Shown here: one piece after another, positions 2,639-53,221 of the stretch
How the letters are laid out: each line of letters begins with the position of its first letter
How positions within the stretch are numbered: the stretch's first letter is position 1
Assembly: GCA_900321205.1 (NCBI GenBank)
Contig: ONVC01000004.1
Location: forward strand, 1-64,000
DNA from: an uncultured Acinetobacter sp.
Lineage (GTDB): Bacteria > Cyanobacteriota > Vampirovibrionia > Gastranaerophilales > Gastranaerophilaceae
DNA length: 64,000 nucleotides
Reading direction: 5' to 3'
The notes under the pieces: generated by a model
The model's input: only the letters and a program-made list of their open reading frames with translations
The model's database searches: none
Told to the model about the DNA's origin: nothing
Program-made: the position numbers and the translations under genes

Positions 2639-2989
2639 ATGTTAAGAGAATTTTTACACTCAAAAATACACAGAGCAACCGTTACAGATGCTAATTTAAA
2701 CTATGTTGGTTCAATTACGGTTGATGAAGAGTTTTTAGAAAAAGCAAATATTTTAGAATGGGAAAAAGTCGAAATCCTGAATATAAATAACGGCGAAAGA
2801 TTCCAAACTTATGCACTAAAAGGCAAAAGAGGTTCAAAAGTATTTTGCCTGAACGGTGCCGCTGCAAGAAAAGCTCAGCCCGGAGATAAGATAATTATTG
2901 TAACTTATGCCCAACTGACCGAAGACGAAATTAAAACACACAAACCAACAGTCGTTCAGGTTGGCGAAAATAATGAAATACTGGATTAA
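2639..2989 (+). CDS. panD: Aspartate 1-decarboxylase (pro-enzyme)
   Basis: PanD decarboxylates L-aspartate to beta-alanine for pantothenate and coenzyme A synthesis. It is a pyruvoyl enzyme made by self-cleavage between Gly24 and Ser25. With the start at 2639 the sequence [20 protein letters not shown] leads to YVGSIT, which places the Gly-Ser pair exactly at 24-25. That supports this start over the ATG seven codons upstream, as does the GAGG ribosome site nine bases before it. Later conserved pieces are [11 protein letters not shown] and the [12 protein letters not shown] block. The length, 116 residues, is normal. A 46-codon ORF follows five bases after the stop. A PanE-like reductase lies at 58 kb. 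Confidence 0.95.
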
Positions 2990-10277: not shown

Positions 10278-10404
10278 ATTATCCCCTTTCTTATTAAACA
10301 AAACTGATATATTTATTCTAGCATAATTATCGGATTTTGCATAATAATCTAAGACAATAAACAGCAGGTTTGTACAAAACAGTTTTCCTTTTAAAAATGG
10401 AAAG

Positions 10405-10433
10405 TTGAAAAAAGGTTAGATATCGTTTATAAT
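10405..10433 (+). promoter_or_regulatory. Strong sigma-70-type promoter of a structured RNA
   Basis: TTGAAA (10405-10410), an exact 17-base spacer and TATAAT (10428-10433) predict a start near 10440, right at the foot of the first hairpin of the RNA downstream. Confidence 0.75.
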
Positions 10434-10439
10434 ATAGAC

Positions 10440-10523
10440 AACAGGGTGGCGGTTTGTCAGACCGGCCAGATACTCTGTTGAAGGCTAAGCGGTATCTACT
10501 TTTTTAAGCAGATGCCGTTTTTA
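10440..10523 (+). ncRNA. Candidate structured RNA / attenuator leader
   Basis: From the predicted start, ACAGGGT (10441-10447) pairs with ACTCTGT (10472-10478). An inner stem, GGC-GGT (10448-10453) with ACC-G-GCC (10461-10467), has a 7-base loop. The 4-base segment AGAT is left unpaired. Then comes a 9-bp terminator hairpin. The bulge-plus-stem sequence AGATAC (10468-10473) is complementary to GTATCT (10492-10497) in the left arm of the terminator, so the first domain and an antiterminator are mutually exclusive. This fits a transcription-attenuating riboswitch for the ABC ATPase gene at 10629, or a free-standing small RNA of about 83 nucleotides. I checked it against the T-box, SAM, TPP, preQ1, fluoride and c-di-GMP classes as I remember them, and it matches none. 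Confidence 0.6.
10489..10522 (+). terminator. Terminator of the structured RNA
   Basis: GCGGTATCT (10489-10497) pairs with AGATGCCGT (10510-10518) with two G-U pairs, followed by TTTTT. It lies about 105 bases before the start of the downstream gene, so read-through would be needed to express it from this promoter. Confidence 0.7.
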
Positions 10524-40548: not shown

Positions 40549-40610
40549 TTCTACTGAATACTCTCAAAAAATAATTTTAAGAGTTTTTGATTAAACAGGA
40601 TGGTTTAATC

Positions 40611-42395
40611 ATGATTTCAGTAAACAGTATAAGCAGTAACAATATAACATTCAGAAGTGCAGGCAAACTGGCACAAAAAATTATTAACAAAAAAACAAAA
40701 ACCATTTCATATGCACCTGCCATAGTTTCGGGAAGCATTTTTACCGGATTTGCTTTGCAGGCAAATTTCAATCCGATAAAAATAAGAGAGCAGGCTAAAA
40801 GATATAACGAAAAAGAGCCCTCCGATTATGAAAACTTTCGGAATGACCTTATAAACAGAATCATGGAAACAAATAAAAAAAATCATGAAAAAGAAAAATC
40901 AGAAGAAGAGTTAAAACCTGAAGATTATAAAATACCCGATTCTGCTGAAATGGAAAAACATCGTTTACCTGATTTTAGCGAATTAAATCTTGATGAAAAT
41001 TTATATGACGATTTCATCAATATGGACCACACTCCCGTTATATTAGCTAACTTCAAAAAAGAAGCCGCAATAATTAAAAATAAACAGCTCAAAACGATTA
41101 CTGAAACAATTTGCAGAAAAAAACAGCTCAACCGCTCTTTATTAAATTATATAAGAGATATTGATGCCGGTCTTTACAATATCACAGATGCAAAAATTCT
41201 AAAACATGTGAAAGCAGAACTGAAAAAACTTGCCGATATAAATTATGATACCGAACACTATGACAAGCCTGAAACCGGAGAATGGGACTTTTTCTTTGCA
41301 TTAGACAGTGTTGCGGCAATAGTTGATACCTATAACACAATGAAAGGAAAGTATTCAAGGTATAAAACAGGCGAGATATTTACCAAAGATGTCTTTATGG
41401 AAAAGAGCAAACCTGCTGCTTACGTGCAAAATTTCAGACAATACGCTCCGGAAAATTATAATAGTTTTATAAAAGCATTATATACAGAAGGTGTTAACAA
41501 ACACTTTTTGGTTACAGATTTTGAAAGTACTCAAAAAACAGAAGCACTTGAAACACTCTCAAAGAAAAAAGAATTGCTTGATTATATATATGACAAATAC
41601 TATGTTTGCAAAATAAAAAATGCCAAAACAAAAAGACTGTGCAGAGAAATAAGTGCCAAATACGGAACTCATGTTTTATTATCAAACAAAACTAAAAATA
41701 TAAACAATGCTTTAACGATAATAAGAGATGAATTTGAGAACTGGACAAAAGCAAGCGAAGGGAAAGCAAAATTACCCGCAATACTGGATATGAATGTTTG
41801 CGATAACTCATACGTTGACAGTTCTGCTTATACGGATATAAGAGGAAATATCCATTACAAAGGTGCAAGATTAAACACACCTGCAATTCTCAGACATGAA
41901 ATAATGCATCTTAACGAACCGTCTTTATTCGGGAAATACAGTGCCGACACTGAACTTGCCAAACTTATTCGTTCAATCATTGCATCAAAAAAGGTTGATA
42001 TTAACGGTACAGAAAAAGAGGTTCTCGACTGGGAAAATTGCAAATACAAAGAAGAGTTTCTGAAGGCGGGTATTAGCACTGAACATATAGAATATGCTTA
42101 TACTAACAGAAATGAGTTTTTAGCCGTTGCCGCAGAAGGTGATTTGAGTCAATATTCACCGGAGTTCAAAGAAATTTTAATGAAAATCGGAATGCCTGAG
42201 TTTGTATTTAATCTGCCGTTAGATGACATTACTGTTGAAGAAAATGTGGAGAGAGTAAAAGATATTCTTGAAGAACATCCGAATGCAAATTATGACCAAC
42301 TCGTTAAATATGTTGAAGAAAAAAAGGCTCAGGAACTAAGTCCCAGAGAAAAACTACTTAATGCAATTTTTGGGAAAATTTTTGGTAAAATCTAA
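40611..42395 (+). CDS. Putative zinc metalloprotease (HEIMH) with N-terminal tag
   Basis: The start at 40611 gives MISVNSISSNNITFRSAGKL, a clear copy of the shared N-terminal motif, followed by a hydrophobic stretch (APAIVSGSIFTGFALQA). AGGATGG lies eight bases upstream. In the 594-residue product a zinc site H429-E430-I-M-H433 (ILRHEIMHLNE) is followed about 75 residues later by NRNEFLAVAAEGD. This resembles gluzincin-like HExxH ... N-E-F-x-A proteases of the anthrax-lethal-factor/ATLF type. The N-terminal 380 residues are charged and helical without known domains. The substrate is unknown. It sits between the giant gene and the recA region. Confidence 0.65.
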   Translation: MISVNSISSNNITFRSAGKLAQKIINKKTKTISYAPAIVSGSIFTGFALQANFNPIKIREQAKRYNEKEPSDYENFRNDLINRIMETNKKNHEKEKSEEELKPEDYKIPDSAEMEKHRLPDFSELNLDENLYDDFINMDHTPVILANFKKEAAIIKNKQLKTITETICRKKQLNRSLLNYIRDIDAGLYNITDAKILKHVKAELKKLADINYDTEHYDKPETGEWDFFFALDSVAAIVDTYNTMKGKYSRYKTGEIFTKDVFMEKSKPAAYVQNFRQYAPENYNSFIKALYTEGVNKHFLVTDFESTQKTEALETLSKKKELLDYIYDKYYVCKIKNAKTKRLCREISAKYGTHVLLSNKTKNINNALTIIRDEFENWTKASEGKAKLPAILDMNVCDNSYVDSSAYTDIRGNIHYKGARLNTPAILRHEIMHLNEPSLFGKYSADTELAKLIRSIIASKKVDINGTEKEVLDWENCKYKEEFLKAGISTEHIEYAYTNRNEFLAVAAEGDLSQYSPEFKEILMKIGMPEFVFNLPLDDITVEENVERVKDILEEHPNANYDQLVKYVEEKKAQELSPREKLLNAIFGKIFGKI

Positions 42396-45542: not shown

Positions 45543-47639
45543 ATGGAAGCAACAATAGAACGATCCGCTGAAAACAAATATTCAACAACTGAGTTTATTG
45601 GCGGAAAGTGGCAGAAAGAGATTAATGTAAGAGATTTTATACAGAGAAACTACACTCAGTATAACGGTGATTCAAGTTTCTTAACAGGTCCAACCGAGGC
45701 AACAAAAAAACTTTGGGAAGAATGCTGCGACCTCTTTAAAAAAGAACGTGAAAACGGCGGTGTTCTCGATATGGACACAAAGATTGTTTCAACAATCACT
45801 TCGCATGGAGCAGGTTATATTGATAAGCCGTTGGAAAAAATTGTAGGCTTACAGACTGATAAACCTCTTAAACGTTCGCTTCAGCCGTTTGGCGGTATAA
45901 GAATGGCAGAAGGGGCATGCAAATCTTATGGTTATGAAGTTGATCCTGAAATCAGCGAAATATTTACAAAATACAGAAAAACTCACAACCAGGGTGTTTT
46001 TGATGCCTATACTCCGGAGATGAAACGTGCAAGACACGCAGCAATCTTAACAGGTCTGCCTGATGCTTACGGAAGAGGTCGTATCATAGGTGATTACAGA
46101 AGAATCGCTCTGTATGGTATCGACAGACTTGTCTACGACAAAATTGAACAGCACAACTCTATTGACGGAGATATGACTCCCGAAAAAATTCAATTGAAAG
46201 AAGAAATCTCCGAACAAATCCGTGCTTTGTGGGAAATGGCAGAACTCGGCAAGATTTACGGTTTTGACATTACACAACCTGCAAGAAATGCACGTGAAGC
46301 TGTTCAGTGGCTATACTTCGGTTACTTGTCAGCCGTAAAAGAACAAAACGGTGCTGCTATGAGTATCGGAAGAACTTCAACTTTCCTTGATATTTATATC
46401 GAAAGAGATTTGCGTGACGGTATTATAACCGAACAGGAAGCTCAGGAACTTATTGACCATTTCATAATGAAATTAAGACTGGTTAAATTTGCAAGAACTC
46501 CTGAATACAATGCATTGTTCTCCGGGGACCCGACCTGGGTAACAGAGTCAATCGGCGGTGTTGGTGTTGACGGAAGACATATGGTTACAAAAAACTCGTT
46601 CAGATACCTTCACACTCTTGAAAATCTGGGTACTGCACCTGAACCGAACTTAACAGTTTTGTGGTCAAAGAATTTACCGCACAATTTCAAGCAGTATGCA
46701 GCACACATTTCAATTACAACCTCATCTATTCAGTATGAAAATGATGATTTAATGAGAACCGTTCACGGTGATGATTATGCTATTGCATGCTGTGTATCAT
46801 CCATGGTTGTAGGTAAAGAAATGCAGTTCTTCGGTGCAAGAGCTAACCTTGCAAAATGTCTTTTGTACGCAATTAACGGCGGTGTTGATGAAAGACTTAA
46901 AGAGCAGGTTGGTCCTAAATACAGACCGATTACATCAGAATATCTTGACTATAACGAAGTTATGGAAAGATATGAAGATATGATGGAATGGCTTGCAGGC
47001 TTGTATGTTAATACTTTGAATGTAATACATTATATGCACGACAAATACTGTTATGAACGCTCACAGATGGCGCTCCATGACAGAGATGTAAAAAGATATT
47101 TTGCAACAGGTATTGCAGGGTTATCGGTTGTTGCCGATTCACTTTCCGCAATCAAATATGCAAAAGTCAAAACAATACGTGATGAAAACGGTATAGTTGT
47201 TGATTATGAAGTCGAAGGAGATTACCCCAAATACGGAAATAACGATGACAGAGTTGACGAAATGGCAGTAGAACTTGTTCACAAGTTTATGAGCATGATT
47301 AGAAAACATACAACTTACAGAAACTCTATTCCTACAATGTCAATTCTGACAATCACATCAAACGTAGTTTACGGAAAGAAAACAGGAAACACTCCTGACG
47401 GAAGAAAAGCAGGTGTTCCGCTTGCTCCGGGAGCTAACCCGATGCACGGCAGAGATTCTAACGGTGCCGTTGCATCACTTGCTTCTGTTGCAAAACTGCC
47501 GTTTAATGATGCACAAGACGGTATTTCAAATACTTTCTCAATCATTCCGAACGCTCTGGGCAAAGATGAAATCTTTATGGGCGATTTGGACATATGTTTA
47601 GACTGCGGTTGCGCAGAGAGAACAGTAGATTTTGAATAA
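45543..47639 (+). CDS. pflB: Pyruvate formate-lyase, catalytic body without glycyl-radical domain
   Basis: PFL converts pyruvate and CoA to acetyl-CoA and formate. The 698-residue protein has the full barrel: [58 protein letters not shown] and the active-site pair Cys416-Cys417 in [10 protein letters not shown]. After [13 protein letters not shown], where canonical PFLs run on into the glycyl-radical loop, it ends in a novel tail, [22 protein letters not shown] (quoted in part: DICLDCGC). No R-V-S-G-Y sequence is present, so this chain cannot carry the radical. The missing domain is the next gene. AAAGGAGATAT precedes the ATG. No pflA activase is adjacent. Confidence 0.93.
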
Positions 47640-47703: not shown

Positions 47704-48132
47704 ATGACAACTCAACAAGAAGAAAATTTAATAAACTTACTTGACGGATACGTTGAAAAGGGTGGACATCACCTTAATGTAAACGTATTTAACAGGGAAA
47801 CTTTGCTTGATGCTCAGGCTCATCCTGAAAAATATCCGCAATTAACGGTTCGTGTTTCAGGATACGCAGTTAACTTTATTAAGTTAACAAAAGAACAACA
47901 GGATGATGTTATATCAAGAACTTTCCATAAATCTCTCGGCTCAACTCCGGTTTCTCAACCGATTGAAGCAAAAGAAATCAAAAACAATATTGAAGAAGAA
48001 AGAATTATTGAATATACACCGGAAACACATACCGCACCGAGAACAAGCGTAGGCTCTATGTCCATGCCGTCTGATTTCAGAGGGGTAAACAAAGGAGCCG
48101 GCATTCAGGAAAAAACTTATACAAACGTTTAA
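47704..48132 (+). CDS. Stand-alone glycyl-radical domain of pyruvate formate-lyase (GrcA-like)
   Basis: A 142-residue protein. Residues 10-80 ([60 protein letters not shown]) are the C-terminal glycyl-radical domain of PFL, with the radical Gly at about residue 53 in RVSGYAV. A tail of roughly 60 residues, polar and Pro/Ser-rich, follows ([20 protein letters not shown]). It resembles E. coli GrcA/YfiD, a spare domain that rescues damaged PFL. Here, however, the upstream PFL lacks its own copy, so this protein is presumably an essential subunit. AAAGGAG lies seven bases before the ATG. The partner body ends 64 bases upstream in another frame. Confidence 0.9.
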
Positions 48133-48135
48133 AAC

Positions 48136-48162
48136 TTGACATAAAAGGCTGTATGCTATAAT
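48136..48162 (+). promoter_or_regulatory. Promoter of the serine-leader transcript
   Basis: TTGACA (48136-48141), a 15-base spacer and an extended -10, TGC-TATAAT (TATAAT 48157-48162). The predicted start lies two or so bases before the leader ORF ATG. Confidence 0.65.
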
Positions 48163-48170
48163 CTAAGAAT

Positions 48171-48236
48171 ATGGAAAATTTATACTTTACAACTTCATCA
48201 TCCTCATCCTCCAAGTTGCATTCGGAACTTGAGTGA
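48171..48236 (+). CDS. Candidate leader peptide with six consecutive serine codons
   Basis: A 21-codon ORF, MENLYFTTSSSSSSKLHSEL followed by a final E and TGA. It contains Ser codons TCA TCA TCC TCA TCC TCC in a row. The ATG is eight bases after the TATAAT, so it has almost no leader, like other starts in this genome. The end of the ORF (TCGGAACT, 48222-48229) is complementary to the left arm of the terminator at 48275-48305 and identical in sense to its right arm. That is the geometry of a ribosome-mediated attenuator. It is too short to be found by ordinary gene callers. Confidence 0.55.
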   Translation: MENLYFTTSSSSSSKLHSELE

Positions 48237-48274
48237 TTTTGATGTGTAGTTTTTAAAGTATATGTTAAAGTTTT

Positions 48275-48309
48275 AAGAGTTCCGATTTTTTAAATCGGAA
48301 CTCTTTATT
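48275..48309 (+). terminator. Attenuator terminator before the 500-aa gene
   Basis: AAGAGTTCCGATTT (48275-48288), loop TTT and AAATCGGAACTCTT (48292-48305) form a perfect 14-bp stem followed by TATTTG. It lies 19 bases before the start codon of the downstream gene, whose ribosome site follows at once. The left arm can alternatively pair with 48222-48229 in the leader ORF. Confidence 0.7.
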
Positions 48310-48327
48310 TGCAGATTTGGAGAAAAA

Positions 48328-49830
48328 TTGAAGGTACATAATATAAACAATTTAACATTCAGAGGACCGTTAGACGGCACGTTAACGCAGGTTTTAAGAG
48401 CCTGTGATACTAATGAAATGGTTAACGCAGTCGGGCTTGACGTAGGTTCTATGGTTATCCCTAGATCGTATTATGATACAAAAGCAAGAAATGAATTTGC
48501 AGGCGCAGAAACATTTTTCCGTGAAATAAGCGGTACTTTTATTAACTGTATTTCAGCAGGCTTATTTGCTCAGATTATTTCTAAAATTGCTTCAAAACAC
48601 GTTATGAAGGATGTTAAAACAAATCCTGCAAGCTGGTACTCAAAAGATTCACTGGAAACTCTTAAAGAGGCATGGGAAAAAGGAGGCAAGAATACGGAAG
48701 GATACCTGAACACAGTATTTGAAAACCTTTCGGGTCGTGACGGGCACGAAATTAATGAGTTTAAGAAGATTAACTGGGATAAAATCGAATGGAATGATGA
48801 AAAAATCTGGCAGAGAATTAACTGGAAAGATGAAAAGTACAAAGGTATTCAGAACAAGTTAAGAACCAAAGAAGATTTTATAAAAACATGCGCAGATTTT
48901 ATTCGGGACAAAAATATTACCTCAGATGACAAAAAACAAGTTTTATCAATAATGGACAAGCGACTTACAAACGCTCTCGGCGCCGGAAGAAACGTAACGG
49001 TTAAAATCGGGGATAAAACCCTTGAAACAAGTCTGTGGAATGTTCTAAGAGATACTCAGGACATGGCACGCGATATTTTTACTAACCCAAACGTCAATAC
49101 AGAGAAAGCGTTTGAAAAAATCAGAAAAGTTAACAAAATTAAAGGTGTTGGTGCAATAACCGGCGCATGCCTTCTGGGTCTTACCAACCAGTTTATAAAC
49201 AGAAAGATTACGGAAAAAAGAACCGGCAAAAAAGGGTTTGTCGGAGATGTTGATTTCACTTCTGCTGAACACGAGCACAAGAAAGACAAAACTCTAATCT
49301 TCAAAAAACTCGGGGCAAGTGCCGTAATGCTCGGCATGGTTGCCTCTGTTATGAGAGTGAAAAACTTTAAAGAGTTCGCTAAAAAACTGGAATTTACAGG
49401 ACCTATTACAAGCGGAAATGCAATAAAAACCGTTTATGCCGCAAATATTACAGGAAGGTTTATGGCGGCAGACAACGGAACAGAACTGAGAGAATCTATG
49501 ACAAGAGATTATCTTGGCTTCCTGAACTGGCTCGTATTCGGTGGTTTTGCAGCAAAAGGAGTTGCTAACCTGCTTGATAAAAAAGGTGAAAATTTGTTCA
49601 ATTATTCAAAAGAGGGCAAAGGCTTAAAACACTGGCTCAATGATTTAACTCTCAAAACGCACAATGAAGTCGCAGCAAAAGGCAGAGAATATATAAAGAA
49701 AAATCTCTGGAAACTCAATCTTGCAAACGCATCAGGTATCGCATATTCAGCTATCACCCTGGGCATACTTCTTCCGATGCTTAATGCACACGTTACGAAA
49801 CATAAAGCAGAAAAACAGAAACAATGCTAG
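48328..49830 (+). CDS. Hydrophobic hypothetical protein with N-terminal tag
   Basis: A 500-residue protein, family unknown. The start is TTG with GGAG six bases upstream. The N-terminus MKVHNINNLTFRGPLDGTL is one of the clearest copies of the recurring motif. Hydrophobic segments lie near residues 70-85 (FINCISAGLFAQII), 270-290 (GVGAITGACLLGLTNQF), 328-345 (LGASAVMLGMVASVM), 405-420 and near the end (AYSAITLGILLPML). It is therefore probably membrane-associated, with a charged Trp-rich middle (INWDKIEWNDEKIWQRINW). It is preceded by the serine-codon attenuator, which suggests its expression follows serine or tRNA-Ser charging (inference). Confidence 0.65.
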   Translation: MKVHNINNLTFRGPLDGTLTQVLRACDTNEMVNAVGLDVGSMVIPRSYYDTKARNEFAGAETFFREISGTFINCISAGLFAQIISKIASKHVMKDVKTNPASWYSKDSLETLKEAWEKGGKNTEGYLNTVFENLSGRDGHEINEFKKINWDKIEWNDEKIWQRINWKDEKYKGIQNKLRTKEDFIKTCADFIRDKNITSDDKKQVLSIMDKRLTNALGAGRNVTVKIGDKTLETSLWNVLRDTQDMARDIFTNPNVNTEKAFEKIRKVNKIKGVGAITGACLLGLTNQFINRKITEKRTGKKGFVGDVDFTSAEHEHKKDKTLIFKKLGASAVMLGMVASVMRVKNFKEFAKKLEFTGPITSGNAIKTVYAANITGRFMAADNGTELRESMTRDYLGFLNWLVFGGFAAKGVANLLDKKGENLFNYSKEGKGLKHWLNDLTLKTHNEVAAKGREYIKKNLWKLNLANASGIAYSAITLGILLPMLNAHVTKHKAEKQKQC

Positions 49831-49879: not shown

Positions 49880-50314
49880 ATGCAGATAGATAAAATTCAA
49901 AACAGTAACCAAACAAGCTTCGGAATTAAGTATGTAAATAAAAAAGCTTGGAATAAGGATGTTTTAAAGGCTTTTGAAGAGTCAAAAATATTCAGAGGTA
50001 TTAATGCAAAATACCCTGATGCAGAAGTTCGCTATACAAAGATATCAGGCGAGGATAGTATTGGTAATGCTGAAATAATTCATACGCTTCTTATGGATAT
50101 AAAACTAGCCAAAAATAAATTTTTCCGCTGGAATTTATCAAGCCACTCTGAAATGTTCCCTGAACAACATTTAAAATATGAATTGAAAATACTTAATATG
50201 AAAGATATAGAAGAAGGTGCCGTCGAAACGCTTAACCCAACATATAGATTGAACATTAAATACAAACAAAATCCCATAAAAGCATTTTTTCAAAAGATTT
50301 TTCATAAATCATAA
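49880..50314 (+). CDS. Small hypothetical protein with N-terminal tag
   Basis: A 144-residue basic protein starting at the ATG at 49880, with AAAGGTG upstream. The longer in-frame reading would begin inside the preceding gene and is rejected. The first residues, MQIDKIQNSNQTSFGIKYVN, show the same M-x-I-x-x-I-x-N-x-x-x-F pattern as its neighbours. The rest contains HTLLMDIKLAKNKFF and a C-terminal basic helix (PIKAFFQKIFHKS). No known domain. It follows the 500-aa gene by 49 bases. Confidence 0.6.
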   Translation: MQIDKIQNSNQTSFGIKYVNKKAWNKDVLKAFEESKIFRGINAKYPDAEVRYTKISGEDSIGNAEIIHTLLMDIKLAKNKFFRWNLSSHSEMFPEQHLKYELKILNMKDIEEGAVETLNPTYRLNIKYKQNPIKAFFQKIFHKS

Positions 50315-51505: not shown

Positions 51506-53221
51506 GTGAAAATCATAAGCATTAGTGCTATTAATTCTTATAACAAAACTGACGGCAGAAAAGTTCAGTTTAAAGCAAATCATGTTAAACCAAAGAATGC
51601 AGCTAAAGTTCTCTCCCTTTTAACAGCAGGATGTGGTACAATAATCACAGCATTACAAACAGGAAGGCAAAGGATGGATGAAACCAAAAAGTTTATTGAA
51701 ATAAGAGAACATTTTTCACAAAAACTTGAACCTGCCGTTATTAACTCGGAGAAAAAATGCTGGGACTTTTTTATAAACTCAAATGAAGAAACACAAAAAG
51801 CATATGAAAAAGCCGAGAATGATATGTATGAACTGTACAAAGACAAAACTGTTTATGATTCTCTTAAAAAAATTGATAAAAAAGCCTTACCTCCACACGA
51901 AGCAAAACAATTAAAAGATTTATTAAGAGATTTTGACGAAGAACTTAATACAGGTGAAGCAAAAAAAGCTTTAAGAAAAAAAGAAGCCAATATCGGACAA
52001 AAGTACAATTCTTACGTTCCAATGATTGACGGTAAAGAGATTACAAAAGTTGATATTACAAAAATTTTGCAGACAGAAACAAACCCGGATATCAGAAAAA
52101 AAGCGTATGAAGCCAAAATAAAAGGCGGAGATTTAATAGCTGAAGACCTGATTAAACTTGTTAAAATGCGAAATGAATACGCAAAAACAAAGGGTTTTGA
52201 TAATTATTTTGAATACATGATAAAAGAAGAGTATGATGTTGAACCTGAACTGTTAAACAAGCTGATTGATAATGTATATTCGACCGCCGGGGATAAAATT
52301 AATGCTCTTCAAACAAAAAAATATGCGGAACTCAAAGCCTTTTTCGGAACAGATAAATTAAATGCATACCATTACGGACTTCTTTTAGATTCAAACCCGG
52401 AAAAAGGAGTCAATGAGATTCTTAAAGAAAACAGCATAGAAGCTATCGCAAAAAAAACCTACGCAGGCATGGGGTATGATATAGAAAAACTCCGGCAAGA
52501 AGGAAAAATAACACTCGATTTATATCCGAGAAAAGGCAAAAACACTCACGGATTTTGCTTTGGCGTAGATGCAGGTAAAGACTCAAGAATACTTGCAAAT
52601 CTCACAAATAATGTATATAGTCTTGATACCTTGAACCACGAACTCGGACACTGCATGTACGACCTCGGGCTGTCTCTTGATTTGCCTTTTGTTGACAGAA
52701 CGCCGTCTTCATCTGCCGTAACAGAAGCTATTGCAATGATGATGGGTGATATTATGAAAAAAGAAGATATTCTTAAAGGAATTATCCCGGAAGAACTTCT
52801 TGAGAAGTTTAAGGAATCTTTAAAAGATGACGAAGCACAATTTGTATCAAGAAGTCTGCTCATAATAGATTTTGAACGTACGCTATATAAAAATCCTGAC
52901 GTAAACCCTGCAGAATTGTGGGCAAGTATGAAATCTAAATATTTTAACAGAGATGAATCAGCAGATAATGAATGGGCAACAATTCCACACTACCTCACAC
53001 ACCCCGGGTATTATCAGAATTACTTTCGTGCAACACTTATGAAAGCACAAATATACAACCACCTGAATAAAGTTCTGGGGAATATTACGGAAAACACTGA
53101 AACAGCAGAATATCTTAACAAAAACATCTTTGCTCTCGGAGCATCTGTCGAAGAATATGATTTAATCGAACAGCTTACCGGTAAAAAATTCGGAGCAGAT
53201 GATTTTGTTAAAAATCTTTAA
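51506..53221 (+). CDS. M3-family (oligoendopeptidase F-like) metallopeptidase with N-terminal tag
   Basis: A 571-residue zinc peptidase. H378-E379-L-G-H382 in LNHELGHCMYDLGLS and a downstream ligand Glu in AVTEAIAMMMGD match M3/oligopeptidase F enzymes. Other supporting parts are TNPDIRKKAYEAKIKGGDLI, KTKGFDNYFEYMI and LDLYPRKGKNTHGFCFG. The start is GTG with AGGAG eight bases upstream. The N-terminus, MKIISISAINSYNKTDGRKV then QFKANHV, adds the recurring motif (ends F-K-A) plus a hydrophobic stretch (KVLSLLTAGCGTIITALQTG) not usual for cytosolic M3 enzymes. This hints at export or membrane attachment. Confidence 0.88.
   Translation: MKIISISAINSYNKTDGRKVQFKANHVKPKNAAKVLSLLTAGCGTIITALQTGRQRMDETKKFIEIREHFSQKLEPAVINSEKKCWDFFINSNEETQKAYEKAENDMYELYKDKTVYDSLKKIDKKALPPHEAKQLKDLLRDFDEELNTGEAKKALRKKEANIGQKYNSYVPMIDGKEITKVDITKILQTETNPDIRKKAYEAKIKGGDLIAEDLIKLVKMRNEYAKTKGFDNYFEYMIKEEYDVEPELLNKLIDNVYSTAGDKINALQTKKYAELKAFFGTDKLNAYHYGLLLDSNPEKGVNEILKENSIEAIAKKTYAGMGYDIEKLRQEGKITLDLYPRKGKNTHGFCFGVDAGKDSRILANLTNNVYSLDTLNHELGHCMYDLGLSLDLPFVDRTPSSSAVTEAIAMMMGDIMKKEDILKGIIPEELLEKFKESLKDDEAQFVSRSLLIIDFERTLYKNPDVNPAELWASMKSKYFNRDESADNEWATIPHYLTHPGYYQNYFRATLMKAQIYNHLNKVLGNITENTETAEYLNKNIFALGASVEEYDLIEQLTGKKFGADDFVKNL

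Follow-up and report, generated by a model that had tools for sequence, protein, structure and literature searches.

Serine-, cysteine- and histidine-codon leaders point to ribosome-mediated attenuators upstream of membrane-type proteins in Gastranaerophilales

The window, the whole stretch of 64,000 nucleotides analyzed here, comes from a genome of Candidatus Gastranaerophilales. The locus comprises, in order, a glycyl-radical domain gene, a promoter, a short leader open reading frame (ORF), a terminator, and a gene for a 500–amino acid (aa) protein. Its features are as follows:

48136-48162, plus strand: sigma-70–like promoter, TTGACA at 48136-48141 and TATAAT at 48157-48162 (from the sequence and the upstream regions of relatives)
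48171-48236, plus strand: leader ORF MENLYFTTSSSSSSKLHSELE and stop, 21 codons (from the sequence and its presence at 79 of 80 orthologous loci)
48195-48212, plus strand: six putative regulatory Ser codons, TCA TCA TCC TCA TCC TCC (from the sequence)
48212-48217, plus strand: arm 1, CAAGTT, pairing with arm 2 at 48226-48231 (from the fold; 85.8% of cells paired among 47 sequences)
48222-48231, plus strand: arm 2, TCGGAACTTG, the antiterminator strand, within the last codons of the leader ORF (from the sequence and 2:3 covariation)
48235-48272, plus strand: inner hairpin between arms 2 and 3, extending the antiterminator (modelled stalled-ribosome fold, -24.8 kcal/mol)
48275-48288, plus strand: arm 3, the left arm of the terminator, of which 48277-48285 pairs with arm 2 (from sequence, fold, and covariation)
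48292-48309, plus strand: arm 4, the right arm of the terminator (48292-48305), then a T-rich tail (from sequence, fold, and covariation)
48319-48322, plus strand: GGAG ribosome site of the regulated gene (from the window sequence)
48328-49830, plus strand: regulated gene with a TTG start, encoding a 500-aa all-helical membrane-type protein (from the sequence, its orthologs, and an AlphaFold2 model)

Direct reading of the sequence confirms the coordinates that an initial annotation had assigned to the ORF, the antiterminator arm, and the terminator, and the 21-codon ORF with six consecutive Ser codons is present as described. The same annotation called the promoter strong. Both hexamers are there, and a TG one base upstream of TATAAT makes an extended -10, but with a spacer of just 15 base pairs (bp) the word overstates the case. 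A promoter scan limited to spacers of 16 to 18 bp did not list this promoter; comparable TTGACA...TATACT/TATAAT elements occur upstream in relatives, with more usual spacing. The window leader has no Shine-Dalgarno site, while many relatives carry an AAGGA/GGAAA ribosome site at that position. If transcription begins at about 48169, the leader mRNA would be nearly leaderless. Farther upstream, a pyruvate formate-lyase–like gene is apparently split: its 698-aa ORF (45543-47639) stops short of the glycyl-radical domain, and this domain is encoded separately by a 142-aa gene (47704-48132; PF01228, E 6e-23) that has its own ribosome site.

The end of the leader ORF, TCGGAACT at 48222-48229, is complementary to AGTTCCGA at 48278-48285 in the left arm of the terminator and has the same sense as the right arm, in agreement with what had been proposed. 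The terminator stem, described earlier as a perfect 14-bp hairpin, does consist of 14 pairs, with a 3-nucleotide (nt) loop (z = -8.0 versus shuffles). Its T-tract is interrupted (TTTATTT), and a terminator pattern scan did not list it. The initial annotation thus described arms 2, 3, and 4 rightly but overlooked the 1:2 hairpin, in which CAAGTT is complementary to AACTTG at 48226-48231. This pairing completes a 1-2-3-4 plan like that of trp and his leaders. The leader half of the transcript (48177-48266) also folds better than shuffles (z = -4.9), and the inner hairpin draws arms 2 and 3 together, closing the antiterminator loop; relatives have similar hairpins. By energy alone the terminator (-17.6 kcal/mol) would be favored over the bare 2:3 helix (-13.2 kcal/mol), and the switch must therefore be partly kinetic.

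The regulated protein is widespread in the family, and the leader was recovered upstream of its orthologs by DNA search. A terminator kept in relatives while the leader and its Ser codons are lost was the pattern that the initial annotation had set against its own reading. We find instead that 79 of 80 named orthologs, like the window gene, have upstream a leader ORF with a run of Ser or Cys codons; the product of the window gene is at most 94% identical to theirs. An overlapping set of orthologs from genome searches, drawn largely from the same organisms, has the leader in 41 of 41. At nearly all ortholog loci, the leader is followed by the 1:2 hairpin and by a terminator with a left arm that fits arm 2. 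Since this full 1-2-3-4 anatomy recurs, the arrangement in the window is not due to chance. The sole ortholog of the 80 without leader and terminator (L082, 2330-2510) keeps a promoter-like TTGACA...GTATACT and appears to be a natural loss of the switch. One further locus (L137) has the leader and no clear terminator.

Both pairings covary among relatives. The leader arm and the left arm of the terminator were aligned separately, so that the alignment could not favor pairing, and 595 of 630 cells were paired; 2000 reassignments of the arms gave 558 ± 3.3 and never more than 569. Core variants that travel together include CGGAACT/AGTTCCG, CAGAGCT/AGCTCTG, CAGGACT/AGTCCTG, CGAGACT/AGTCTCG, and AGGAACT/AGTTCCT. 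In a 47-row alignment (A2), 97.6% of cells in the 2:3 helix are paired, with double changes at 5 of 8 pairs. Double-change cells number 25, against 4.8 ± 1.7 in shuffles, and paired cells, double-change cells, and covariation score all exceed every one of 500 shuffles and every slid version (in which pairing falls to 57% or less); arm 2 is coding and the relatives are not independent, and these shuffle counts therefore overstate significance and are not probabilities. For the 3:4 helix of the same alignment, the figures are 98.7% and 7 of 8 pairs. The 1:2 helix shows double changes at one pair and is weak or altered in some genomes. The alignment of related genomes thus yields what had been predicted from the window, a conserved codon run (Ser or Cys) together with covarying 2:3 and 3:4 pairings.

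This pattern bears on two readings in which the leader is not translated. The transcript of about 48170-48305 might be a stand-alone small RNA, its C-rich and anti-Shine-Dalgarno–like UCAUCCUCAUCCUCC acting on other mRNAs and the ORF being accidental; its own promoter and terminator and the long hairpin at 48177-48266 would suit such a role. We consider this highly improbable. The C-rich stretch becomes TGTTGTTGCTGT in a clade with Cys leaders, without loss of the reading frame or the codon run; arm 2 retains its complementarity to the terminator, the same gene always lies directly downstream, and no Rfam family reaches the gathering threshold. A T-box, riboswitch, or protein-bound attenuator responding to serine without leader translation is extremely unlikely. 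Such T-box and riboswitch classes share the alternation of terminator and antiterminator, but what is conserved here is a reading frame with its codon run. Moreover, Rfam gives no match at the gathering threshold anywhere in the window, and the weak matches at the locus are at chance level, none of them plausible.

Codon choice within the run is strongly skewed. Among Ser-type runs, 379 of 383 Ser codons are UCN; in long ORFs from these loci, the share is 71%. UCC alone accounts for 55% of the Ser codons in the runs, against a background of 8% in those ORFs. Ser-type runs also hold some UGC, and the Cys clade uses UGY. During serine starvation of Bacillus subtilis, ribosome density rises at UCN and Cys codons and not at AGC/AGU (PMC3862929). 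The leaders thus use the starvation-sensitive codon set known from that bacterium.

The leader is of the Ser type in 67 genomes and of the Cys type in 13, the latter forming one clade. On a maximum-likelihood protein tree, one switch between Ser and Cys suffices (support for the Cys clade, 97/95). This single exchange of Ser for Cys at orthologous loci indicates that it is the codon run that is kept and not an RNA motif. Leader residues outside the run vary freely, and both the length and the amino acid of the run change among relatives. We therefore weighed whether the leader peptide might itself arrest the ribosome in response to a ligand or to secretion, with the Ser/Cys run as part of an arrest motif. 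An arrest peptide, too, could show a short conserved run that is followed by Lys and keeps a nearly constant spacing to arm 2. Such a peptide would nonetheless leave unexplained the free variation outside the run, the changes in run length and amino acid (Ser and Cys here; His elsewhere, see below), the near-exclusive use of UCN among six Ser codons, and the scarcity of the same residue in the regulated product. We regard it as very unlikely.

The element is not confined to one gene. A covariance model searched in 182 genomes of the family found two further kinds of leader beyond those of the orthologs, both of which occur in the genome of the window (G000):

L174 100-400, equivalent to G000:C75 about 10300-10460: Cys-codon leader MKNSFVNNLICCCCKSCC and stop, plus a terminator, in front of a gene paralogous to that for the 500-aa protein
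L206, equivalent to G000:C35 about 2660-2830, minus strand: His-codon leader MTYFYAKHHHTHINPKGLRVLRFL and stop

The first belongs to a paralog subfamily about 45% identical to the 500-aa protein, so that two paralogs in this genome differ in their leaders, one having the Ser type and the other the Cys type. The second precedes a different membrane-type family (MSLVNIISAIGNNNSVYPLLVRDCG...), whose leader is rich in His in almost every readable genome, for example, MLLTTAKFHHIHHSFPKGL and stop in L179; His-codon leaders are also found at L178-L181, L203, and L210-L236. The end of the His leader is complementary to a terminator in many genomes, and the terminator finder failed in several. Searching for the pattern of a His-codon run returned the C35 leader and one further match, on C74. 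No leader for any amino acid was found for the tandem paralogs on C59 or for several other distant paralogs.

A fourth conserved upstream peptide, with the end ...KANAPxVKLMNLxWGL and stop, precedes a related family (IYSTLGNNNSLVPLAIKD) at L238, L239, L242-L244, and L247-L251. It has no clear terminator, and, since its family also shows no clear matching residue depletion, we do not count it among the attenuators. It is perhaps another kind of leader.

The geometry of the Ser/Cys element fits control by ribosome position. Counted from the initial base of the final run codon, arm 2 lies a median of 13 nt away, which is approximately the reach of a ribosome past its A site. We modelled folding at 79 loci, with the transcript extending to the end of arm 3 and an assumed ribosome footprint of 12 nt. 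The expected number of 2:3 pairs averaged 7.8 for a ribosome halted on the final run codon, 2.5 for a ribosome-free transcript, and 0 for a ribosome that had reached the stop; at least five such pairs were expected at 96%, 25%, and 0% of loci, respectively. The corresponding values for the window are 8.8, 3.9, and 0, so that here some 2:3 pairing is retained without a ribosome. Modelled in this way, arm 2 is accessible when the ribosome sits at the regulatory codons and covered when it sits at the stop.

We propose the following mechanism. With ample serine, the ribosome would cross the six UCN codons to the stop and cover arm 2; the 3:4 terminator would then form, and transcription would end before the 500-aa gene. 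Without a ribosome, arm 1 would tend to capture arm 2, and the terminator would form again. When UCN seryl-tRNA is scarce, the ribosome would halt on the last Ser codons and mask arm 1; arm 2 could then pair with arm 3, and transcription would continue into the 500-aa gene. We infer leader translation, stalling, the resulting read-through, and a product that helps to obtain the missing amino acid. UCN choice, the Ser/Cys exchange, the existence of a His version, and depletion of the residue in the product all fit stalling for lack of charged tRNA. To judge from its sequence, the locus has every feature by which a ribosome-mediated transcription attenuator would be recognized, and very probably it is one, sensing charged tRNA-Ser. 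Comparison among relatives, through the conserved run, covariation, codon choice, the Ser, Cys, and His versions, and depletion, thus lends good support to the amino acid attenuator first suggested from the window.

Each regulated protein is poor in the residue that its leader senses. Background long ORFs contain 6.36% Ser, 1.27% Cys, and 1.51% His. Proteins with Ser leaders have 4.42% Ser (UCN making up 62% of their Ser codons versus 74%), while orthologs with Cys leaders have 7.19% Ser and 0.21% Cys, and paralogs with Cys leaders have no Cys in 10 of 10. Leaderless paralogs have 7.69% Ser, 0.58% Cys, and 1.17% His; Cys is therefore low across the whole superfamily, and only the further drop to 0 to 0.21% counts. 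Proteins with His leaders have 0.08% His, with none at all in 18 of 26, compared with 0.90% in a relative of that family without a His leader. The evidence for depletion thus consists of four contrasts between related groups, all in the same direction. A comparable "cognate bias" is known for biosynthetic enzymes, which are low in their own amino acid; this has been explained by the need to synthesize them during starvation (PMC4209129).

The function of the 500-aa protein is less readily assigned. Neither Pfam nor NCBIfam gives a family that exceeds the cut-off, and none of its sequence matches in the PDB is convincing. The AlphaFold2 model (50-sequence alignment; pLDDT 83, pTM 0.83) is all-helical with several hydrophobic helices, and a fold search with it gave weak matches only, to GltPh-like structures (Foldseek E 0.16, TM about 0.1) and to membrane pyrophosphatase (VIA Z 6.2). 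The initial annotation had noted that the controlled gene does not encode a biosynthetic enzyme. A link to amino acid supply may exist after all, though not a biosynthetic one. The genome of the window has serA and a cysK-like gene, so simple auxotrophy for Ser or Cys does not explain the switch. In the same genome, hisD was not found, and the His-leader protein is commoner in genomes without hisD (15 of 26 versus 2 of 14; Fisher P = 0.017). It is possible, if somewhat doubtful, that the proteins assist cells in acquiring the amino acid that has run short; the alternatives are roles in survival or in the envelope during starvation. Several ORFs of the window (40587-42395, 48328-49830, 49881-50314, and 51506-53221), and likewise the paralogs, share an N-terminal motif, roughly I..I...N..F(K/R)(G/A), perhaps a targeting or processing signal of the lineage.

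Leader-peptide attenuators are textbook devices of amino acid biosynthesis operons. Like the enterobacterial trp, his, leu, and thr leaders, the element described here has a short leader ORF in which codons for a single amino acid are repeated immediately ahead of arm 1; its 1:2, 2:3, and 3:4 pairings exclude one another, and it includes an intrinsic terminator. Those leaders control a biosynthetic operon or a tRNA synthetase; this one does not. It would sense serine (cysteine in the sister clade) and precedes a membrane-type protein in Gastranaerophilales, for which we found nothing relevant in the literature on leader-peptide attenuation.

Other systems share single traits with it. Mycobacterial polycysteine ORFs (Canestrari et al. 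2020, cited in PMC13236596; candidates in PMC1262725) are short and often leaderless, carry a Cys run, and lie upstream of a regulated operon. Those operons serve cysteine metabolism, and PMC1262725 reports no conserved terminator hairpin, whereas here an intrinsic terminator and antiterminator precede a gene for a membrane-type protein. The uORFC-8-2 motif upstream of cysS in Rhodobacterales (PMC8632094) has likewise been predicted to act as a ribosome-mediated attenuator and combines a terminator with tandem Cys codons, but these codons number only two, the gene is one for a tRNA synthetase, and the motif belongs to alphaproteobacteria. In sinR of B. subtilis, ribosomes are slowed at UCN (not AGC/AGU) Ser codons and at Cys codons when serine is depleted, but these codons lie inside the regulator's own gene and form no attenuator (PMC3862929).

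What is new here is the amino acid sensed, its exchange between clades, the target, the co-occurrence of three such leaders in a single genome, and the scarcity of the sensed residue in the regulated proteins. The UCN-codon rule of serine sensing in Bacillus is thereby extended to an attenuator, and a change of sensed amino acid through exchange of a codon run (Ser versus Cys, at an orthologous gene) can be traced on a tree. The match between sensed and depleted residue provides an independent test for starvation-induced genes that needs only sequence. We think it close to an even chance that Gastranaerophilales possess a starvation-proof system of amino acid acquisition, in which at least three parallel Ser, Cys, and His attenuators each control their own lineage-specific membrane protein, purged of the sensed residue and belonging to an uncharacterized protein class, and in which replacing one codon run by another lets evolution change the amino acid that is sensed. 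For an unannotated family in a largely uncultured gut lineage, the depletion match suggests a testable function, amino acid acquisition or starvation survival.
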